Shown: positions 49,220-60,983 of the stretch, one piece after another
Numbering within the stretch: position 1 is the stretch's first letter
Layout: the number at the start of each line of letters is the position of its first letter
NCBI GenBank assembly: GCA_026770025.1
Contig: JAMXDE010000022.1
Span: forward strand, 372,001-436,000
Source of the DNA: Craspedostauros australis
Taxonomy: Eukaryota > Bacillariophyta > Bacillariophyceae > Mastogloiales > Achnanthaceae
Length of the DNA: 64,000 nt
Direction: 5' to 3'
Notes under the pieces: generated by a model
Database searches by the model: none
The model's input: only the letters and a program-made list of their open reading frames with translations
Told to the model about the DNA's origin: nothing
Translations under genes and position numbers: made by a program

Positions 49220-52200
49220 TTAGAACAAGAAGAACTGCTGCGCCAATGGAACCTTCGTGACGGGCTCGCACTGCAGCACCTCGCCATCGGCCTTCACCTC
49301 GAACGTTTCGGGGTTCACCTCCATGTTGGGCGTCGCATCGTTCAGGATCAGATCCTTCTTCGTCACGCCGCGGCAGCCCGAGATCGGGGCCACGAGCTTT
49401 TGCAATCCAAGCCGTTCTCCGATGCCACGGTCGGCGGCTGCCTGGCTCACGAAGGCCACGGAATGATCATTCCACGACGTCGCGCCGAACATGGGCCGCA
49501 TCTTCACGGGCTGCGGGGTCGGGATGCTGGCGTTGGGGTCGCCCATCTGCGCCCATGCGATCGTGCCGCCCTTCACGATCATGTCCGGCTTGGAGCCGAA
49601 GAATCCGGGCTTCCACAGCACGAGGTCCGCCATCTTGCCGACCTCGATGGAACCGATCATGTGGGACATGCCGTGCGTGATGGCGGGGTTGATGGTGTAT
49701 TTGGCGAGGTACCGCTTCACGCGGAAGTTGTCGTCTTCGTTGGCGGCGTCCTCATCCAACGCCCCGCGCTGCAATTTCATCTTGTCGGCCGTTTGCCATG
49801 TTCTTGTGATCACTTCGCCGACGCGTCCCATGGCCTGCGAGTCGGATGAGATCATCGAGATGGCGCCCATGTCGTGCAGGATGTCTTCGGCCGCGATGGT
49901 TTCCGCCCGGATTCGCGATTCTGCGAATGCGATGTCCTCGGGGATGGAGGAGTCCAAGTGATGGCACACCATCAGCATGTCCAGATGTTCGTCCATGGTG
50001 TTCACGGTGTAGGGGCGGGTGGGGTTGGTGGAACTCGGGAGAACGTACGGTTCTTGGACGATCTTGATGATGTCGGGCGCGTGTCCGCCTCCGGCTCCCT
50101 GTTATGTGTGTGTTGTGTGTTACGCGTTTTGTAAATGAATGGTTGAATTTGAGTGCGTGCCGATCACGTTAGAGTGAGAATCATTGAGCATACCATTGCG
50201 GTGTGGTTCCGCTTTCACACAATGTGGCTGCGCAATCGCAACTGTTTGAAGATGCACATAGCTTACCTCCGTGTGATACGTGTGGATTGTCCTGCCCTTC
50301 ATCGCTGCAATGCTGTCATCCACAAAGCCGGATTCGTTGAGGGTATCGGTGTGGATCGTGATGGCAACGTCATTCTCCTCCGCAAAATCCAAACAGGCAT
50401 CAATCGCCGATGGCGTTGTCCCCCAATCCTCATGCAGCTTGAATCCTGCCGCTCCAGAATTGAGGACATCCTCCAGCACCTTGGGATCGCTCGTGTTTCC
50501 CTTGCCGGAGAAACCGAAATTCAACGGGTACTTGTCTGTGGCCTGCAGCATCATCTCGACTTGCGATGGCGCTGGTGTGCATGTCGTGGCGGAAGTTCCT
50601 GCTGAGGGGCCGGTTCCTCCACCAAACATGGTCGTCAGACCGGATGCGATGGCATCTTCGATTTGTTGTGGGCTGTTGATGGCAATGGCGGTGACGACGG
50701 TTGGGCAAGATTGGATGGAATGGTGTGAGAAGTTGGAGTGTTGCAAGCAGCAACAATCAGGAATCGAGCGACATCGTGATTCAAGCGCAATGCAAATAGA
50801 CTCAACGCAACGCGATAGAGTACCAACACTCACCAAATCCAATGCACATGCGTGTCGATGCCACCGGCCGTGAGGATCATTTTCTCTCCTGCGATGACGT
50901 CCGTCGTGGCGCCGACGATCATGTTGGGATCGACGTCGGCCATGATATCCGGATTGCCGGCCTTGCCAATGCCGACGATGCGGTTGCCCTTGATACCGAC
51001 ATCGGCCTTGATGATGCCCGTGACGGAGTCGACGATGAGCGCGTTGGTGATGACGGTGTCCAAGGCATCGGCGGAACTCACGCCAGTGGCCTGTCCCATG
51101 CCTTCTCGCAGCGATTTGCCGCCTGCGGTACGAGTAGAAGCAGAGCACATGATGAGTATGATGTTGAAGATGGGTTGAAGGAGTGAGAGAGAGAAAGGTA
51201 GACAAAAGCGACATCACACTATGTTAGGACGACATGATGACAATGGGAACGCTGCGAACTGCTGCAATCACAACACCAGAGGGATGAATCTCTTCCCTCC
51301 AAGGCAGACGTACCTCCAAACTTGCATTCATCACCATAATGGGTGAGATCCTTCTCCACTCGAATGGAAAGGTTAGTATCGCCGAGCATGACCCTGTCGC
51401 CCGTGGTCGGTCCATACTGCAGTTGCAAGTGCAAGACGAAAGATGCATGAATAGAAACGGGAACAGCAGCAACGCATGATTGCAACGATGCTCAATTGTG
51501 GTGAGATGACAATGTTACGCGGGGAACGATTGCATTGAAGGACGAACATACACATGTGCCGCATTGCAAACAACATCATCAGCACCGTTTCCGTGCAAAC
51601 CTCCCTCCACTTACCATGTCGGCATACGACGACCGATCGATGACGAACGGCTTGCCTTGCGGCGCCTGCGCGGCCGGCGCATGCTGGAATCCTCCATCGA
51701 CAACTCGCTGCATGATCTCATCGACGCGATCGGGCGAGGCGACGCCGTCCGTCAAACGATTGCCGCTGAGCACCTTCTGGTTGCCGGCGATCTGCACGAG
51801 CGTGACGGTCTTGGTCTCGCCGGGTTCGAAGCGCACCGACGCGCCCGATGGCACATTGAGACGTTTGCCGATGGACAGCTCGCGATCGAATGCGAGGTGT
51901 TTGTTCGTCTCGACGAAGGCGTAGTGCGAACCGACCTGGATGGGACGATCGCCCGTGTTGGTGACGGAGACCTCGACGAGCGGACGATCGGCGTTGAGCG
52001 TGATGCCATCGCCGTCGTCGTCGGGCAGGACCTTGCCCGGCACGAGGGATGCTTCGTCGGCATCGACGTCGAACTCGGCGGGCACGGGCAGAAAGCTGCC
52101 GGCCAACGCGGCTTCGAGATCGCCGTGCAAGGCCGCGATGGGCGAATGCACCGTGAGCAGCTTGGTGCCATCCGGGAAGGTGGCCTCGACCTGGATGTCG

Positions 52201-52628
52201 GAGATCATGGCGGCGACGCCGGGCAGCACGTTGGCGCGGCCCAGCAGGGACTGTCCCAGCGTCATGAGATCGGCGACGGTGCGATCGCCGTCGCGGATCT
52301 TCTCCATCATCTGCATCGTGATCAACGCGACGGCCTCCGGATAGTTGAGGCGCACGCCGCGGGCCAAGCGGTATTGCGCGAGTCGGCCGACATTGTGCAG
52401 TTGGAGGTGATCGATTTCGCGGGGGGAGAGATGCAGCTGTCGTTGTTGTTGTCCTTGTTGTCGATGTTGTCGATGGGGTTGACTCTGATGATGGCAGTTG
52501 ACTGCATTGACGCCATCCCTAGTCGTATTGACGAGATAGGAGGTCGATGTGGAGATCGCGCGCGGCAACTGACTGCACAGGACGCCACGCCGCAAGATGG
52601 CCTTCGTTGCGCTCTTCAATCGTATCAT
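49220..52628 (-). CDS. URE: Urease, single-chain eukaryotic type, five exons, one apparent frameshift
   Basis: Exons 52628-51615, 51416-51314, 51122-50834, 50672-50267 and 50100-49220. The chain has gamma, beta and alpha parts in plant/fungal order. Gamma starts at [19 protein letters not shown], beta at VPGKVLPD, alpha at [14 protein letters not shown]. Nickel and catalytic residues are present: HVH (464, 466), the carbamylated Lys in GFKLHEDW (547) with His 549, [10 protein letters not shown] (His 576), [12 protein letters not shown], flap MVCHHL and SSDSQAMGR. It hydrolyses urea to ammonia and carbamate. A 65-residue N-terminal extension precedes gamma; its first half is basic and Ser/Thr-rich like a mitochondrial presequence. 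In exon 5 an extra 2 nt within 50039-50044 shifts the frame between VQEPYVL and [13 protein letters not shown]. With it removed the protein is 896 residues. No accessory gene is nearby. Confidence 0.95.
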
Positions 52629-52812
52629 GTTGCGGCGTCAAAGGTGGGTGCTTGGATGTAGTCGTAGTGGGATGTGCTGAAGTACGACCTGCGGAGTGAT
52701 GCTGCCTGAGGCCATCAACGACACATGCACTGCGTGTATGGCTATGAAGTTGCGGTTATCGATGCTATGGCCACGAGTATTCGCATAGTCGTAGTAGTAG
52801 TAGTAGTATTAG
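52629..52812. promoter_or_regulatory. Urease upstream region, truncated by transposon
   Basis: Only 184 bp separate the urease ATG from the transposon end. It contains a GTA trinucleotide run at 52788-52808 touching the insertion point. No TATA or Inr element can be claimed by eye. Confidence 0.4.
52809..52812. repeat. Candidate target-site duplication TTAG (left)
   Basis: TTAG directly abuts the left inverted repeat and recurs directly outside the right one at 58825-58828. With only four bases, and a GTA-rich left flank, chance cannot be excluded. Confidence 0.6.
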
Positions 52813-52860
52813 GAGCCCGATCAGTGAGTCGACCTGCACTTTGTCATGGGACTCAATAAC
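52813..52860 (+). repeat. Left terminal inverted repeat, perfect part
   Basis: It begins GAGCCCGATCAGTGAGTC. An exact inverted match lies at the right end. The diverged inner part extends to about 52975. Confidence 0.95.
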
Positions 52861-53474
52861 TTTTATCTAGTAGATCCAAACCAAGCACATATTAGTAATC
52901 CTTATAATCTTCTTACAAATAATTAACCGATCGATTTTTGTTGTATATCCTTTTTTAAGTTTTATGTACAGTCAAAGATATGCTAAAGTCCTATGAGTCG
53001 ACCCCATGAAACTCGTGGTTGTTTTTCAGAAGGTTCCATGCTGTTCCGAAGTATTTATCGCCGGGTGATCAGTCACGGACCTGCTCCGGAAGGAGTCGTT
53101 CGTTTGGTACACGTTAAATACACGTTAGCATCTGCGACATGATCTCACATTTTGCTCGTCACAAAACACATCACACAAAACACATCACACATCCAAAATC
53201 ATCGCCATCCGCCCACAATTTCGCAAATCATCGCCACTCTTTCGCTCCATCTCACAACTTTCCTCGCCAATGCCATGCGCACTCGCTGTTGTGTTCCATG
53301 CTTGTGCTCGCCCTGGTAGTGTAGTAGTAGTAGTAGCAGCAGCAGTTGTTGTTGTTGTTGTCAACAAATGGTCGACCTTCATCCCATGCTCTCCTTTCCT
53401 CACTTCGTCTCAGACCAGTGCAGTTCATCACAGACAACCAGCCAACAACTACTCTCTCCAGCACCAATTCAACC

Positions 53475-56400
53475 ATGCTCCCCTCTGCCGCTGCCAAGGC
53501 CCTCCCCAACGATGCTAACCCCTCCCCCAGTAAGAAACCGCGTTCTGCTCGCCTTGCATCTGCTCCTCCCTTCGATTCGAAGGGGTTCCTGCTGCCTACT
53601 GCAGAGCAACTGTTGCCTGACAAGCCGTCTGCTACGTTGAGGAAGCCGAGCACCATCACGCAAGTGATCGATGTGAAGCCGATGCATGCAGCGGATGGCG
53701 GCCTCGTCCCGAACAGTACGCATGCGCATGCTCGCGAGCTGCACGTGTTCGTACACATCCTCGATGACAATGGAGGTGTCTACGACAACTCCAACGTCAG
53801 GGTGCGCTCGGAAGGACGAGGTGTCGGCGATGGTACGTTGGTGAGCGTTATCGTGAACGCGCCACCCCCGCCTGCTGCAGCTGATGTTGCACCACCTGTC
53901 GAGCCTGCCCCACCGGCGAGGCTCCCTCGTCGCTGCAATGCTGTTGTTGCTGGTGGCTATGCAGACACCTCCAATGACAGCGACACCACCTACGAGGACA
54001 ACGACAGGGGGAAACGAACGCGCGCCAGCAGGAACAGGAGAGGAGGTCAGTTTGGGTATGACCCGGAAGAGGGGGGAAATTGGAGGCGCCCTGCTGTGAT
54101 TCGTGTGATGGAGGAGCTCACGGATCACTTCGATGTGAACGTGTTCAATTCCATGCCTCCCACAGGATTCGTGCTAGGTGGCAATTGCGACAGGCGCACA
54201 TGGTGGAATGCAACACGTGTGTGGGTCACTGTGGCAACTGCGCTCTGGGGTGTCTTGCTCCCTCAGGAGGCTCCGCCAACTCGCCAGATGCAACAGGTGG
54301 TGGCGTTTGTCCATGCTCGCGTGGACCTCCCGCCTCCTGCACTTGGTGCGAACCTGTACACCCTATGTGTGAGGGGAGAAAAGACACTTGCGAACGCTGC
54401 CAGAGCTGTGCTCGCTGCATCTACATCATTCACTAACAGCTCCGCAATCCTGTCTCGTCATGTGAAGACTCTTCCGGAGGAACAACGCAATCGTGTCGAG
54501 CCCACGCGTGCCACTATTACTAGGAGTCAGCTAACAACATTGCGACGTGGGTTTGATATGTTTAGCCGTGGCGAGGTCATCCCATCGCGAGTTCTCCAGT
54601 ATCGCGTGCCTGCCTGTGACCTGTCTGGCGTGGTGTCCTTCCTCATGACAACAACAACATACAAGCCAGGGTTGAGTCACATGGTACAGTATGGTGGAGT
54701 TGAATTCGAGAATGTCCCGGTGTTCGATCGTGGTAGCACCACCATCAAACAACTATTGGACATGTACTCCTCCACGACCAGCAACCCAGTTGGAAGGCCC
54801 GCGTTCACCCTCATGACGAACCTCCTCACACGCAAAAGCAAGATCAAGACGGGCCTTTCTTCCTTCGAGAGTTACTTCTGGATGGCAACACAGAAGCTCA
54901 AACAGGCAATTTCGCGCCTAGTGGACCTGCTGAAGGCTAAGTATGATGCGGATGGGGAGGGAAAAAACGATGCCAATGACGAGAGCGACAACGACGACGA
55001 GCCGGATGACGTCATTGCGCAGCATGTGCGCACTGCCGATTCTCTGTTGCATGCACTCGAACTGCTTGTCGTGTTCGTCAAATGGGAATTCACCGCGTCG
55101 CACATGCAGCTTCGTTGTGACGACCCCATGCATTCGGCCGCGTTCGCTCTCACCACCGAAAAGGCGAAGAAGGGAGCAGGCTCATCAACCAATCAACGCA
55201 GAGCACGCACCAACAAACACAAGTGCAAGGAGAACACCACCATCACAAATGACATTTCTCCCGCCACCTCAAACAAACAACCACGTAAAGTATGCAACAG
55301 ATGTGGCGCAGCAATGCGATTTGTGGATGATCGTTTTGTTCCTTTTGTCACCATGCTTAAGGACAACGAACTCACAGAACACAAGGACGAGTTGCAGTCA
55401 ATGCTTGTGGCAGCGCCGGGATTCGCTGATGAAATTGTTAACTACATGGCTCACAAAGTGCGTGCAAAGGTTCAATTCAGACAAATCGACATTTATAAAT
55501 CCACGACCAACAACAATGGCAAAAGAGCCTATGTGGTACTCGACCATAAGCAAAAAATTCTACCGACAGGCCAAGGCGAAGCCCAACAAGAATATTGGGG
55601 GAAGAAGGGAATGTCACTGCTTGGGGCGATGGTCATCACGTGTCACAATGATATTTTTACTTATCAGTTCATTGACATTGTGGTCGGTGGAAGACCGACA
55701 CAAGACACTCTTCAAGTTGGTGGACTACTTGACATTGTGCAAAAAAAGGTCAAAGAAATTCTCCCATCCGTGACTGAAATCATCCTACAGAGCGATAACG
55801 CGTGTTGCTTCGCCAGTCACGAGCACATCCCACTGATCACATCGGTACTCAACAAGAACCTTGCGACACGAAAAGCAGCCAAAATCATCGCGTGGATCTA
55901 CACGGAGGCCCAAACCGGTAAGAGCATGCTGGACACCCACTTTGCGTTCATCACCCGTGTACTGCGAAAATACGTGCAAAGCGGACGCGACATCAAGACC
56001 GCCCGCCAACTCTACGAAGCACTGAAAGCTGGTAGCATCGCGGGGACAACAACGGTATTGGTCAATGCACGAAACCTCCAAGGCCACATCACGACATTGC
56101 CAGGCGCACCAAAAAGACGATTCCGAGCGTCTGGACAACAGGTACGTCAGACTCATGAGGTGAAGTATGACGATGGCCAGGCGCGGCTGGTGGCTGCATC
56201 TGGCATCACGGAAGACGTCGTGGTGAAGACCACCGAATGGGATGGCTGGATCATCAATGAGGTGGGTGTCATCGAGGACAGAACGTTCACGTCCGAGAAG
56301 CCGGCAATTACGTCCGAATCATTCAGGAAGACGGACAAGACGCGAAAACTCGGTCGCACAGCAGCAGAGAGCAAGGGGCTGGTGTTCGGCAAAGCCCTCG

Positions 56401-56975
56401 AAGACGGACATGAACACCTTCCGTGTGATCACACCACGGCGCTACAAGACCAGACCGCGGAAACACAACACCCACCACTCGCTGTGCCAGGCTGGGCTAG
56501 CAAAACCACGCGCAAACCAGCGAAACTACCAGACTACATCGCGGCAAAATTGAAGGACATCAGTGAAGCGTCCGCGAAGGACCCGAAAAACAGACCGTCC
56601 GAACACGAAGCACATGAGCAATTGATGGACGACAACAGGACCAAAACTGACTGGTACGTACAACTGCACGCAAACCCCATGCGCGTCAAAGCGTCGCTGT
56701 CGGCAGCGTACAACACCAAACAACGGAAGGAAAAGAAGGAGGCTGCCCTCATCAAGACGGAAACCACCACCAACCCAACAGGCAACACAACAGCAACAGC
56801 ATCTGCAATTGTGGCGACCCACGATGCGCCAGCTGAAACACAGGAGGAACGAAGAGAGGAGGAGTTGCAGAGAGAAGAAGAGGAGCTGGATCATCAGATG
56901 TGGTGTGATGCTGACACACTGAAGGCCAACACAGAAAGTGAGGCTGTGTTGGATGATGGGACGGAAATTTTGTGA
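53475..56975 (+). CDS. DDE/D-like transposase of unassigned superfamily
   Basis: A 1,166-residue single frame; the first ATG is in an AACCATGC context, although the frame is open upstream. The N-terminal 240 residues are Pro/Ala/Arg-rich. A Cys/His region at about residues 540-620 (LRCDDPMH ... VCNRCGAAM) may bind zinc. A candidate catalytic core follows: YVVLDHKQK (Asp 690), a Gly-rich EYWGKKGMSLLGAM, ILQSDNACCF (Asp 774), and WIYTEAQTGKSMLDTHF (Glu 811). The order and the strand-like context fit an RNase H-fold DDE triad, and the E-x-Q-x-GK-x3-D-x-HF pattern resembles transposase-like genes scattered in fungi, cnidarians and protists. The KDZ-type families are one possibility, not established. 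The C-terminus is charged, with Glu-rich helices. Confidence 0.75.
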   Translation: MLPSAAAKALPNDANPSPSKKPRSARLASAPPFDSKGFLLPTAEQLLPDKPSATLRKPSTITQVIDVKPMHAADGGLVPNSTHAHARELHVFVHILDDNGGVYDNSNVRVRSEGRGVGDGTLVSVIVNAPPPPAAADVAPPVEPAPPARLPRRCNAVVAGGYADTSNDSDTTYEDNDRGKRTRASRNRRGGQFGYDPEEGGNWRRPAVIRVMEELTDHFDVNVFNSMPPTGFVLGGNCDRRTWWNATRVWVTVATALWGVLLPQEAPPTRQMQQVVAFVHARVDLPPPALGANLYTLCVRGEKTLANAARAVLAASTSFTNSSAILSRHVKTLPEEQRNRVEPTRATITRSQLTTLRRGFDMFSRGEVIPSRVLQYRVPACDLSGVVSFLMTTTTYKPGLSHMVQYGGVEFENVPVFDRGSTTIKQLLDMYSSTTSNPVGRPAFTLMTNLLTRKSKIKTGLSSFESYFWMATQKLKQAISRLVDLLKAKYDADGEGKNDANDESDNDDEPDDVIAQHVRTADSLLHALELLVVFVKWEFTASHMQLRCDDPMHSAAFALTTEKAKKGAGSSTNQRRARTNKHKCKENTTITNDISPATSNKQPRKVCNRCGAAMRFVDDRFVPFVTMLKDNELTEHKDELQSMLVAAPGFADEIVNYMAHKVRAKVQFRQIDIYKSTTNNNGKRAYVVLDHKQKILPTGQGEAQQEYWGKKGMSLLGAMVITCHNDIFTYQFIDIVVGGRPTQDTLQVGGLLDIVQKKVKEILPSVTEIILQSDNACCFASHEHIPLITSVLNKNLATRKAAKIIAWIYTEAQTGKSMLDTHFAFITRVLRKYVQSGRDIKTARQLYEALKAGSIAGTTTVLVNARNLQGHITTLPGAPKRRFRASGQQVRQTHEVKYDDGQARLVAASGITEDVVVKTTEWDGWIINEVGVIEDRTFTSEKPAITSESFRKTDKTRKLGRTAAESKGLVFGKALEDGHEHLPCDHTTALQDQTAETQHPPLAVPGWASKTTRKPAKLPDYIAAKLKDISEASAKDPKNRPSEHEAHEQLMDDNRTKTDWYVQLHANPMRVKASLSAAYNTKQRKEKKEAALIKTETTTNPTGNTTATASAIVATHDAPAETQEERREEELQREEEELDHQMWCDADTLKANTESEAVLDDGTEIL

Positions 56976-58776
56976 TGGGTGTGCATCACCGCGATAACAC
57001 TAGTTGTGGAGTTTTGTGGGTGGCAGACCATGCTACTAAAACGAGTCTAGAGGCCATCCAAAAAGCACATCCAATATCTGCTTGTCATGCTATATCTCAA
57101 CAACACATCGCTTAAAATTAAATCTAAACATTGCATTCTGACGCATGACTATCGGTTTATCAGAATATTGAAGTTAAATGAGTATAGAAAATATTTTGGA
57201 AGTCATGTTGGTTTGCTGTGTGTTGTGTGGTGGATTCGAAAAAAAATGGTCGATGGCACAATGTTGCCCTCCAATGAGCACACATGATGATCATCATCAT
57301 CCTTGTATTTCAGCAAACTGTGCATACCGTTCGCTCTGAATACCCCCCAGCTATCCACTCCATGAAGGCTGGCCACAGACATTGGCTCTGCATGCAGCAA
57401 TGCAGCCACACACTGAAACAGAGCGATTGCCAAAAATGTTTTCAATCCGGATGCGGTATGGATACGGATCCATACCTCATCCATACAATCCTTTCATCCC
57501 CTCCAAGCACTCCTCGTGCATTCCCACACTCCATGGCGACACGCGGATGCATCCAGAATGGGCTGGGAGTGCATGGCCGACATGATACACCTCCATGTGA
57601 TGATGTTGTGGTGCATTTTTTGCTCCAACCGAACATGACCATTCTGCAGATATGGTTGGCTGCAGCCTCTTCCAGACAACTTCAGCAGAGCATACTTCAC
57701 GACGTGCATCTTCAATTGATGTCGCACGCATCTTGCATGGGGGCCTTGGCGATTGAGGGGCGTCTTCCCATTGCCCCTCACCGCCAAAGCCACGCAACCG
57801 GTGCTGCGCGAGCCCCAACCAAAACTCCTGAAAACCACCTTTGTGTCCGCGCGGACACCTTCCCGGTGCTCCGCGAGCCTCAAACTTCGAGGGCGCCTTC
57901 TTCGTGCCCCTCTTGAGGCGTCTTGACCATCCATAGGCGCTGACATGGCCTGTATGTGCCACACACAGGCCAAAACCAACGAGCCGATTTGGAGCCAAAT
58001 CGTGATCGTATTTCTGGGGCCTACGACGGCCCCAAATCAACCCCTCTTCCCGCCTCCGTTCGTCCACCCACCAAACGTTGCGTGGAGGTGACGGCGATGT
58101 TCTTGGATCTTGAATTGGCCGGCTGGTTGTTGCGGCGCCAAGCATACCGTTCGACGGCCATTGTGGTATTTTTTTGTGTTGCTCCACTTCCATGTTGGTG
58201 TGTCGAGTTTGCCACTCTCGGCCAGCCTCACATGTTGGGGGATGTGGAGATTTTCCTCCAATTGTACCGACTGTCCAAAAAGACCACGACACAAAACACT
58301 CGAGGAGTACCAACCCCACTCAACCACTTCGCCACGACGAAGCAGACCTGATGATGTTGCACATCGTGATATCATTGGTGTTTCGTGACGACGTATCTAA
58401 TTGGGTGACGTCGATGACGGATCGGCCGAGCACATGGTTGAATGCATGTAAACTCGCATGCACCGCTTCTCCCAAAACTCCACAACTAGTGCTATCGTGG
58501 AGGGACTGTTGGATGGTCCCATCCGAACACCTGAAAAAGAGACTAAACAATTCAAAATCGGAACAAAGTTGCTGAAACAAAGAACAGCAAAAGGTTAAAT
58601 TGGATCGATGTAGTCGGAGGAAAAAGGCTGAGTCCCTAAAGCAGTCTAAAAATGCTCACATTGACGGGTCCATAAAACTTAAAATAGGATCTAACTTAAA
58701 AATCTATTGGTTAATTATTTATATGGAGATTACGAGGATTACGAATATGTGCTTTGTTTGGATATCGGAGACAAAT
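56976..58776. other. Transposon non-coding right part with palindrome cluster
   Basis: AT-rich blocks at about 57060-57250 and 58540-58776 enclose a GC-richer 1.3 kb stretch. Four inverted repeats lie within 190 bp: a perfect 16-bp palindrome at 57843-57858, an imperfect 11-bp stem at 57947-57971, an 8-bp stem at 57985-58002 and a 6-bp stem at 58016-58033. A near-identical 16-mer, CGGTGCTGCGCGAGCC, repeats about 73 bp apart (57799 and 57872). Overlapping frames on both strands (57284-57916, 57477-58319) lack motifs and are not called. Confidence 0.6.
57843..58033. repeat. Cluster of four hairpin-forming inverted repeats
   Basis: The arms are GTGTCCGC/GCGGACAC, GGCCTGT/ACAGGCC, CGATTTGG/CCAAATCG and GGGGCC/GGCCCC, in that order on the plus strand. 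They are unrelated in sequence to each other and to the terminal repeats. Confidence 0.8.
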
Positions 58777-58824
58777 GTTATTGAGTCCCATGACAAAGTG
58801 CAGGTCGACTCACTGATCGGGCTC
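58777..58824 (-). repeat. Right terminal inverted repeat, perfect part
   Basis: Exact inverted match to 52813-52860 over 48 bp. The diverged inner part extends left to about 58660. Confidence 0.95.
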
Positions 58825-59175
58825 TTAGTAGGATGGTGCACGTAGATCGTACGGACAACACCAGAGAGCGCTTCTGTTGCTTTGGGAATTCGCACAGACA
58901 CCAAAAGATCCAAAATTCTCTCATGTTCTTGGGAATCAAAACAGGTGGCGCGAAAGATACGATTTCGAGATCGTTGCACCGACGGGGCAGTTCATGCAAT
59001 GCTCCCATGAGTGCAACATTCAATACTCGCTCGCCATGCACAATGCATGCATCTCAGCCTATGCTGTCCAAGATCCCACTCGTATTGCCGTTGAAGCGTT
59101 AGCAATTCTATCATCACAGTTACTTCCTCCTACGCTTGCCTTGCTACGAGTATCCTCATTCTACACTGCGCTGCT
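58825..59175. other. Intergenic between transposon and FKBP gene
   Basis: It starts with the second TTAG. No gene seen; it includes the 3' flank of the FKBP gene and the sequence that, before insertion, was joined to the urease promoter. Confidence 0.5.
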
Positions 59176-60138
59176 CTACTTCTGTTTGACGACATCCAAC
59201 AACTCCAACCTCCACCACAATCGCACTTGTCCTGGCACATCATACTTGTCCGAACCATATATTCCATAGCCCAACGCATTGGGAATGTCCAACTCCCGAA
59301 TCTCGCCCACGCACATGCCAGCCATGCCCACATCCACGCCGTTGACGACGCGTCCCTTGCCCAGCGGGAATGTGATGGAATCTCCCTCGTCGTAGATGGG
59401 CCCACCGGGCGACGCCACACGCGCCTCGTACCGGATCGTGACCAAATCACCACGCTTGGCCTTGCCGGCATCGCACTGTCCTTTCCGAATCGTCTTCGTC
59501 ACGAGCCCCGTGCCCTTCGTCGACAGCGGCGGTCCCTCACCCTTCTCTTGTTGCAGCATCCCATCCAACGCCTGCTGCGGCGTCGCCGCTGTCGCTTCCG
59601 CCGTATTGTAGAACTGCAGCACGATGGGATACGGCCCATTCTGCAACCGCCCCACGACAGCGGACGACGACGCGAATCCCAGCACCACCATGCCCGGTTG
59701 CACGGTCTGCGACATGCTGGCCTCGACGACGCTGTACGTGCGGCCTTGCAGCGTGGCGTCCTTCAATCGAACGCCCGCCTTGTCGTCTTTGGTGTCGAGG
59801 ATGATCGTCGTGATGAACTGCGGCGATGGTTTGGACAGCGACGATTCTGTCTCGGCCTGGGCAGGTTGCGATGCTGTTGCCGCCGTAATCCACAGCGCGT
59901 TGGTCAGCACGGATCGGCGGTCCAATGATTCTCCAACTGGCAACGCTTGCGACGATGGCGATGGTTGTACCGATGGTGGACTATTGGCACTGCGAGGAGT
60001 CAATTTGCTTGCAGGATCGTTGGATGGACGTCCCATCGGCTGAAGTGCCGAACATCGCTGCGGTTGAAGTAGCACCAAAAGTGCACAAAAGAGCAGGATC
60101 GAATAGCGAGAACAGTCGTCCTTCATCGTCATCACCAT
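59176..60138 (-). CDS. Thylakoid-lumen-type FKBP peptidyl-prolyl isomerase
   Basis: A 320-residue single-exon protein. The leader is tripartite. First comes a signal peptide (YSILLFCALLVLLQPQ) ending at CSALQP, an ASAFAP-like motif. A Ser/Pro-rich transit stretch follows, then a twin-arginine lumen signal (RRSVLTNALW ... ASQPAQAE). The FKBP domain is C-terminal: RGDLVTIRYEARV, DSITFPLGKGRVVNGVDVG, MAGMCVGEIRELDIPNALGYG, RLWWRLELLDV. The Trp at the base of the FKBP12 pocket (VIxGWD) is Val here, so isomerase activity or drug binding may be weak, as in several lumenal FKBPs. About 110 residues between leader and FKBP domain are of unknown fold. Nearby ATGs at residues 3 and 5 could also serve as start. 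Confidence 0.88.
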   Translation of the reverse strand: MVMTMKDDCSRYSILLFCALLVLLQPQRCSALQPMGRPSNDPASKLTPRSANSPPSVQPSPSSQALPVGESLDRRSVLTNALWITAATASQPAQAETESSLSKPSPQFITTIILDTKDDKAGVRLKDATLQGRTYSVVEASMSQTVQPGMVVLGFASSSAVVGRLQNGPYPIVLQFYNTAEATAATPQQALDGMLQQEKGEGPPLSTKGTGLVTKTIRKGQCDAGKAKRGDLVTIRYEARVASPGGPIYDEGDSITFPLGKGRVVNGVDVGMAGMCVGEIRELDIPNALGYGIYGSDKYDVPGQVRLWWRLELLDVVKQK

Positions 60139-60983
60139 CCTTGGCTCGCTATGTGCTCTCTCTCCAGATAGTTACTGGGATCAAATGATCGCTGATCCCT
60201 GTGCTATTACCTGAATTTCCTCTGGTGGAATGGACTTGCGATGCTGGTGTCCAAGTTGGCATCCACCTTCCACAGTCCGATGTTGATGGGTGGGTGGATC
60301 TTTCTTCCGTTGCTTTAGTTCCTTGTGGTTGGTGACGTTGTGTGGCGAACCCTGTGATTTCTGTTTTCTGGATTCGTTTTTAGTCACGAGACATTGGTGC
60401 GATCGAGTCACGGTTATCCTCGCTTCGCCTTTTGTAGTCGATTCAGTCGATCTTCCTCTCTTGTGAGAAGTTTGGAAGGGAACCGACATGATTGGCACGA
60501 CAGATGACATGGAGCGAACTTCCGTGTTTGGCACACATTTGACACCAACATCTGTTGTGCCTTTCTCCTTCCTTGTTGATGGGCGACGACCACCATCGCG
60601 AGTCTCGTCGCGGAGAAGAGGGTGTTTGCTTCAAGCCGGCTCAACAATCTCTGCTCCAGAGAGAATCCTTCTCCACGATTTCGCTGTTTGCATTCTCATG
60701 AATGGCACACCTCTTGTATTCGAAGCGGCGGCACATTCAGACACGCCGCCACGTATTATACTTCTCCATCGGGTCAGACTCTTCACGTGCCTGCTTCCCT
60801 CATTCATTCGGTCATCCATCCATCCATCCATCCATCCATCCATCCATCCATCCATTCATAGCAACATCGCAGCACTGCGTTGGCGAAGCATTCCAAGTCA
60901 CTCGATCCGTCTTCTCAGCTGCAACCGCAACAGCTCGTACAGACGCTGTCCGTCCATCCATTCAGCTCGGCTCAAGTCCAGGA
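60139..60983. other. Intergenic or leader region with ATCC repeat
   Basis: It lies between divergent genes. The aspartoacylase frame is open back to an ATG at 60702, but this part includes the CATC repeat and basic low-complexity sequence, so it may be untranslated leader. Confidence 0.45.
60813..60855 (+). repeat. CATC tetranucleotide microsatellite
   Basis: About ten CATC units. The aspartoacylase frame runs through it, coding an HPSI repeat if translated. Confidence 0.9.

Follow-up and report, generated by a model that had tools for sequence, protein, structure and literature searches.

The window analysed here is a stretch of 64,000 nucleotides from the diatom Craspedostauros australis (GenBank assembly GCA_026770025.1, contig JAMXDE010000022.1, positions 372,001 to 436,000 of the forward strand), and it holds a 6,012-bp transposon with terminal inverted repeats (TIRs) at 52813-58824 (+ strand), in an intergenic-looking site. 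TTAG stands at either side (52809-52812 and 58825-58828), exactly where an earlier reading, made from the letters alone without database searches (the sequence-only reading), had placed it. The termini open with GAGCCCGATCAGTGAGTCGACC..., their outermost letters being GAGCCC..GGGCTC, and the 48-bp repeats described in that reading are indeed perfectly inverted (52813-52860 on the + strand, 58777-58824 on the - strand). They are embedded in a 163-nt inverted pair at 85%, in which imperfect pairing runs on to about 52969 at the left and starts at about 58668 at the right. A search for further copies with the same ends, as suggested earlier, found them on other contigs, and because these ends recur there, the window element is far beyond chance. 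Between the ends lies an intact transposase gene of 1,166 codons without intron (53475-56975, + strand), unbroken from its ATG at 53475 to a stop ending at 56975, again as first described. The 1.85 kb that follow the transposase give no support for a further gene, since the open frames there differ in length and position across 15 copies.

In keeping with a diatom host, the large RuBisCO subunit of this genome is matched best by PDB chains 5n9z, 5mz2, 5oya, 6ftl and 7yk5, which are diatom enzymes. The genome (74.8 Mb, 90 contigs) was searched with the transposase protein, and 40 coding copies were scored, the window's included, among 550 candidates. These are 82-100% identical, and 38 of the 40 have no stop within the match. 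Two of them (L016 and L017), on contigs C1 and C4 and flanked by the duplications CTAG and TTAT, show a single difference in 6,008 bases; another pair (L011 and L013) has 5 differences in 6,048 positions with 33 gap columns. Among the other 14 full copies the nearest to the window's is L010, which contains a single in-frame TGA and differs at 84 of 6,011 positions, with 48 gap columns. The ratio of nonsynonymous to synonymous substitution rates (dN/dS) lies at 0.19-0.28 in all 45 pairs of 10 representative copies, which indicates that the transposase is under purifying selection. The family is genuine and recently mobile, with many intact members. The youth ascribed to the window element on first reading is a property of its family, and less so of the window copy itself.

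The ends were inspected in 21 copies (20 fetched, plus the window's) and the left flanks in 30. Of the 21 copies, 16 had two recognised ends, and 15 of these 16 are bounded by an exact 4-bp duplication of the form NTAN: TTAT five times, TTAA, ATAT and CTAG twice each, and TTAG, ATAG, ATAC and GTAT once each. No longer agreement between the flanks was found in the 15 copies, tested up to 12 bases, so that what had been a possible 4-bp duplication, to be fixed by comparing the flanks of other copies, is now firm in both length and form. NTAN also precedes the element wherever its left end was recognised (28 of 28), as against a share of 2.3% for TA dinucleotides in the window. One end went unrecognised in five copies (the left in L014; the right in L020, L023, L027 and L028). 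In the sixteenth two-ended copy (L012) the right end is rearranged; here, and in L041, on contig C19, the tip has been replaced in a way that makes end and flank palindromic (GATCGTGTTATAACACGATC), as would be expected had fold-back repair copied the end. A copy from a distant subfamily (L150, 72% core identity) has a similar left end, ATAA followed by GAGCC, and its right end was not found within the piece fetched.

The element inserts precisely. For 8 of the 15 duplicated sites the two flanks were joined and compared with the genome, and 40 of 138 candidate places were scored. For one site (L018) the joined flanks have 39 matching places that span the junction over the full 156 positions; for another (L019) there are 3 such places over 146 positions, both at 90-97% identity. 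The matched places measure 155-157 and 144-145 bases respectively, lengths from which it follows that they lack both the element and the second 4-mer. The other six joined sites had no match among the 40 candidates scored. Both targets, on contigs C62 (L018) and C22 (L019), are dispersed repeats, and look like copies of older ones. The two types lie near each other on opposite strands, within about 400 bases, at C1:749318-749827 and C23:463043-463537, and because two contigs hold both so closely, the types may belong to one repeat family. Copies also lie beside one another: two stand head to head on contig C44 (L022, about 388564-388567), with ATAT alone separating their left ends, and a tail-to-tail pair about 230 bp apart occupies C4:3209864-3222143.

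We propose that the element is very probably an autonomous DNA transposon moved by a DDE/D transposase. The enzyme would bind both TIRs, probably at TGAGTCGACC, which occurs in the left end (52825-52834, + strand), again at a subterminal position (52994-53003, + strand, element offset 181), and in the right end (58803-58812, - strand). Allowing up to one mismatch, these three occurrences compare with a mean of 0.34 in 100 mononucleotide shuffles, and the copy at offset 181 is kept in 11 of the 15 full copies; we regard the motif as a candidate binding site. The transposase would then pair the ends, excise the element and join it to a target with a central TA through cuts 4 bp apart, and repair of the gaps would yield the 4-bp NTAN duplication.

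The catalytic acids proposed in the sequence-only reading, D690-D774-E811, stand in part. We compared a first alignment of 14 rows with a wider set of 33 members that are 54-100% identical to the window's core. D690 (codon 55542-55544, + strand) is kept in 14 of 14 rows and in 30 of the 33 (L146 does not cover it), and D774, in the SDNA motif (55794-55796, + strand), in 13 of 14 and 33 of 33; both are retained as the putative first and second acids. E811 (55905-55907, + strand) is not supported as the third in the form first stated, because D820 (55932-55934, + strand) is exactly as invariant, each being present in 33 of 33. In DDE enzymes the third acid is located on the helix following the fifth strand. 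D820 comes after G815-K816 and stands at a helix start in a low-confidence model (mean predicted local distance difference test, pLDDT, 45.8), which agrees with that layout, so that we marginally prefer D690-D774-D820 over the version with E811. Natural changes of the proposed acids occur as D690G in L140, D690N in L149 and D774N in L015. Upstream of them, a C607-x-x-C610 pair (55293-55304, + strand), both cysteines of which are invariant in 14 of 14 rows, may bind zinc.

Several observations weigh against this scheme. The two copies with an altered D690 have no stop in their matched part, and the single row of the first alignment with D774N keeps its full frame; that copy probably has a dead enzyme, or else carries a very recent mutation. 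The candidate binding site at offset 181 is absent from 4 of the 15 full copies. No excision footprint was seen, so the element could instead move by a copy-out route. The RNase H fold presumed for the enzyme also drew no support from prediction: AlphaFold2, run on the window sequence alone, gave mean pLDDT values of 37.5 (residues 638-910) and 45.8 (672-850), too poor to show the clustering of D690, D774 and E811 for which a structure had originally been proposed. The 672-850 model places a strand before D690, then two long strands, helices and a strand ending just before D774. This order resembles the first part of an RNase H fold, but we give it no weight at such a pLDDT. A Foldseek search of PDB structures had no match at E 0.001. 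The best 50 of 305 rows at E <=10 are unrelated chains, some of them Cas9 at TM-scores <0.2, and include neither a transposase nor a retroviral integrase.

Profile libraries agree with the original statement that the transposase cannot be matched to a named superfamily. The window protein was matched by no Pfam model at E up to 10 and by none in NCBIfam at E up to 1. Four PDB sequence rows (best E 0.45) were taken as chance, as were scattered weak Pfam rows for other members (best E 0.034 among 13 core and 0.065 among 14 full-length sequences) and a PHROGs tail fibre row (E 0.018); the family profile drew no rows from PDB sequences. Neither KDZ, Ginger, MULE nor hAT, against whose profiles a search had been advised, appears among the Pfam matches, and the Ginger rve core in particular gave no match at E up to 10, either in 14 full-length or in 13 core members. 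The control was a scan of the genome with this library, which does recover transposases of other types: 160 piggyBac-type matches (some genes counted twice) and 9 for MULE (PF10551). PiggyBac-type domains are thus abundant in this diatom, many of the 160 with an internal TGA, and MULE domains few.

Searches beyond profile libraries found no relative either. A tblastn search of phages and plasmids returned none at E up to 1, and IMG/VR gave no match to the family alignments A1 and A2. The scans of IMG/VR and GTDB by short peptide patterns have a reach limited to fairly close relatives: in IMG/VR, patterns drawn partly from observed motifs gave 3 and 40 stretches, of which 7 of 43 were in frame and open and all were unlike the transposase when read, and in GTDB 75 and 68 pattern stretches included no relative. 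Two IMG/VR candidates were rejected, a core match seeded by a short KTARQLYE stretch and lying by eye among phage structural genes (L060), and the single tblastn match at E <=1 among 20 further pattern stretches (L130, E 0.77), which fell in the wrong place. Searches of a limited library of literature met no paper on the present family, and none of six motif strings was found in print. Since the enzyme matches none of the searched protein-family libraries, the family may be an undescribed lineage or else an outlying branch within a group that already has a name.

Among the named groups the published description of Sola comes nearest: DDD transposases, 4-bp duplications, lengths mostly of 2-9 kb and TIRs of 11-1124 bp (PMC10741241), with reports from the diatom Cyclotella cryptica (PMC7466962) and the brown alga Ectocarpus (PMC12477816). 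By that description alone the present family fits or can fit, with a 4-bp duplication in 15 of 16 two-ended copies, a length of 6,012 bp, TIRs of 48 bp (perfect) or 163 nt (imperfect), and a DDD triad if D820 is the third acid. However, dictyostelid Sola2 families make AWWT-type duplications (PMC3627910), a form seen in only 2 of the 15 NTAN duplications here, and a fragment that we presumed to be Sola-like had no genome match and an hhalign value of 0.2% against alignment A2. It is a serious possibility, though somewhat short of an even one, that the family belongs to Sola1, 2 or 3, perhaps distantly, and that the family alone is new. This would bear on how the element is filed and not on how it moves, and its many intact recent copies would still be of use for dating and studying the spread of an element.

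Somewhat more tentatively, we hypothesize that the family represents a DDE/D superfamily of its own, with 4-bp NTAN duplications and the motifs VxDxK - YWGKKG - TQD - SDNA(C/G)CF - TEAQTGKxxxD, without a Pfam model, present in diatoms and animals and recently expanded in this diatom. The animal side derives from what we take to be an animal protein, uncharacterised and without accession, whose motifs run WFGKRG - SDNAGCY - EPQAGKDxCD; 175 residues of it were compared. As a lead and not a test, this fragment aligns with the window transposase over 178 columns (26% identity, E 7e-19), with the four acids aligned; it has no Pfam match. Against the genome it gave 150 scored places of 313 candidates, the window's included, at E <=1.5e-12, with stops in 6 of the 150 by our own count. 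The fragment may be biased because it was written down after the window transposase had been read; its SDNAGCY, however, predates our sighting of diatom members with SDNAGCF (the window has SDNACCF), which counts against pure bias. Motif order and acids are alike in the presumed animal protein and the diatom family. If the family does lie outside the named superfamilies, it would add a branch to the few transposase types of eukaryotes, and diatoms, which are major marine primary producers, would gain a native transposon family of which many members are intact and the target preference is known.

The remaining alternatives fare much worse. An IS630-Tc1-mariner-like element cutting 4 bp apart around TA would account for the invariant central TA of the target, and we consider it very improbable: the mariner duplication is the 2-bp TA itself (PMC5199201), whereas the outer bases are duplicated here in 15 of 15 cases, and no mariner-type Pfam match occurs among the 14 full-length members. 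Least probable of all is a TTAA-type superfamily with relaxed target choice, which could draw on the 4-bp duplications with central TA, the cut-and-paste manner and genomic abundance of piggyBac, and the 5'-RR..YY-3' termini of Kolobok (PMC9587614; GA..TC here), but TTAA makes up just 2 of the 15 duplications, the piggyBac model DDE_Tnp_1_7 (PF13843) leaves the window transposase unmatched at E up to 10 and none of its listed genome matches overlaps the element, and the C/DxxH signature that accompanies TTAA duplication in Kolobok (PMC9587614) is absent between D774 and D820.

If D774 is the second D, the same absence separates the family from MULE, hAT, P and Dada, in which C/DxxH follows that residue (PMC9587614, PMC3706591). 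The C(2)C and H(3-4)H placed between the second D and the last acid in CMC, i.e. CACTA, Mirage and Chapaev, are likewise both lacking from D774 to D820 of the window protein, and the 4-bp duplications (15 of 15) differ from the 0-, 2- or 3-bp ones of Harbinger and ISL2EU, the 6-bp ones of fungal IS3EU families, whose TAYGG..CCRTA ends are also unlike GAGCCC..GGGCTC, and the 8-bp ones of Zisupton (all PMC12730594); the Pfam scan had no KDZ match. Judged by these sequence characters, the family would belong to none of piggyBac, Kolobok, MULE, hAT, P, Dada, CMC, Harbinger, IS3EU, Zisupton, Ginger or Tc1/mariner, which bears out the poor fit to hAT, Mutator, CACTA, piggyBac and Harbinger remarked on earlier.

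The window element appears to lie between genes, because the frames on both sides of it look like genes by eye: the one at 51579-52637 (- strand) resembles a urease subunit and the one at 59176-60171 (- strand) an FKBP-type isomerase.

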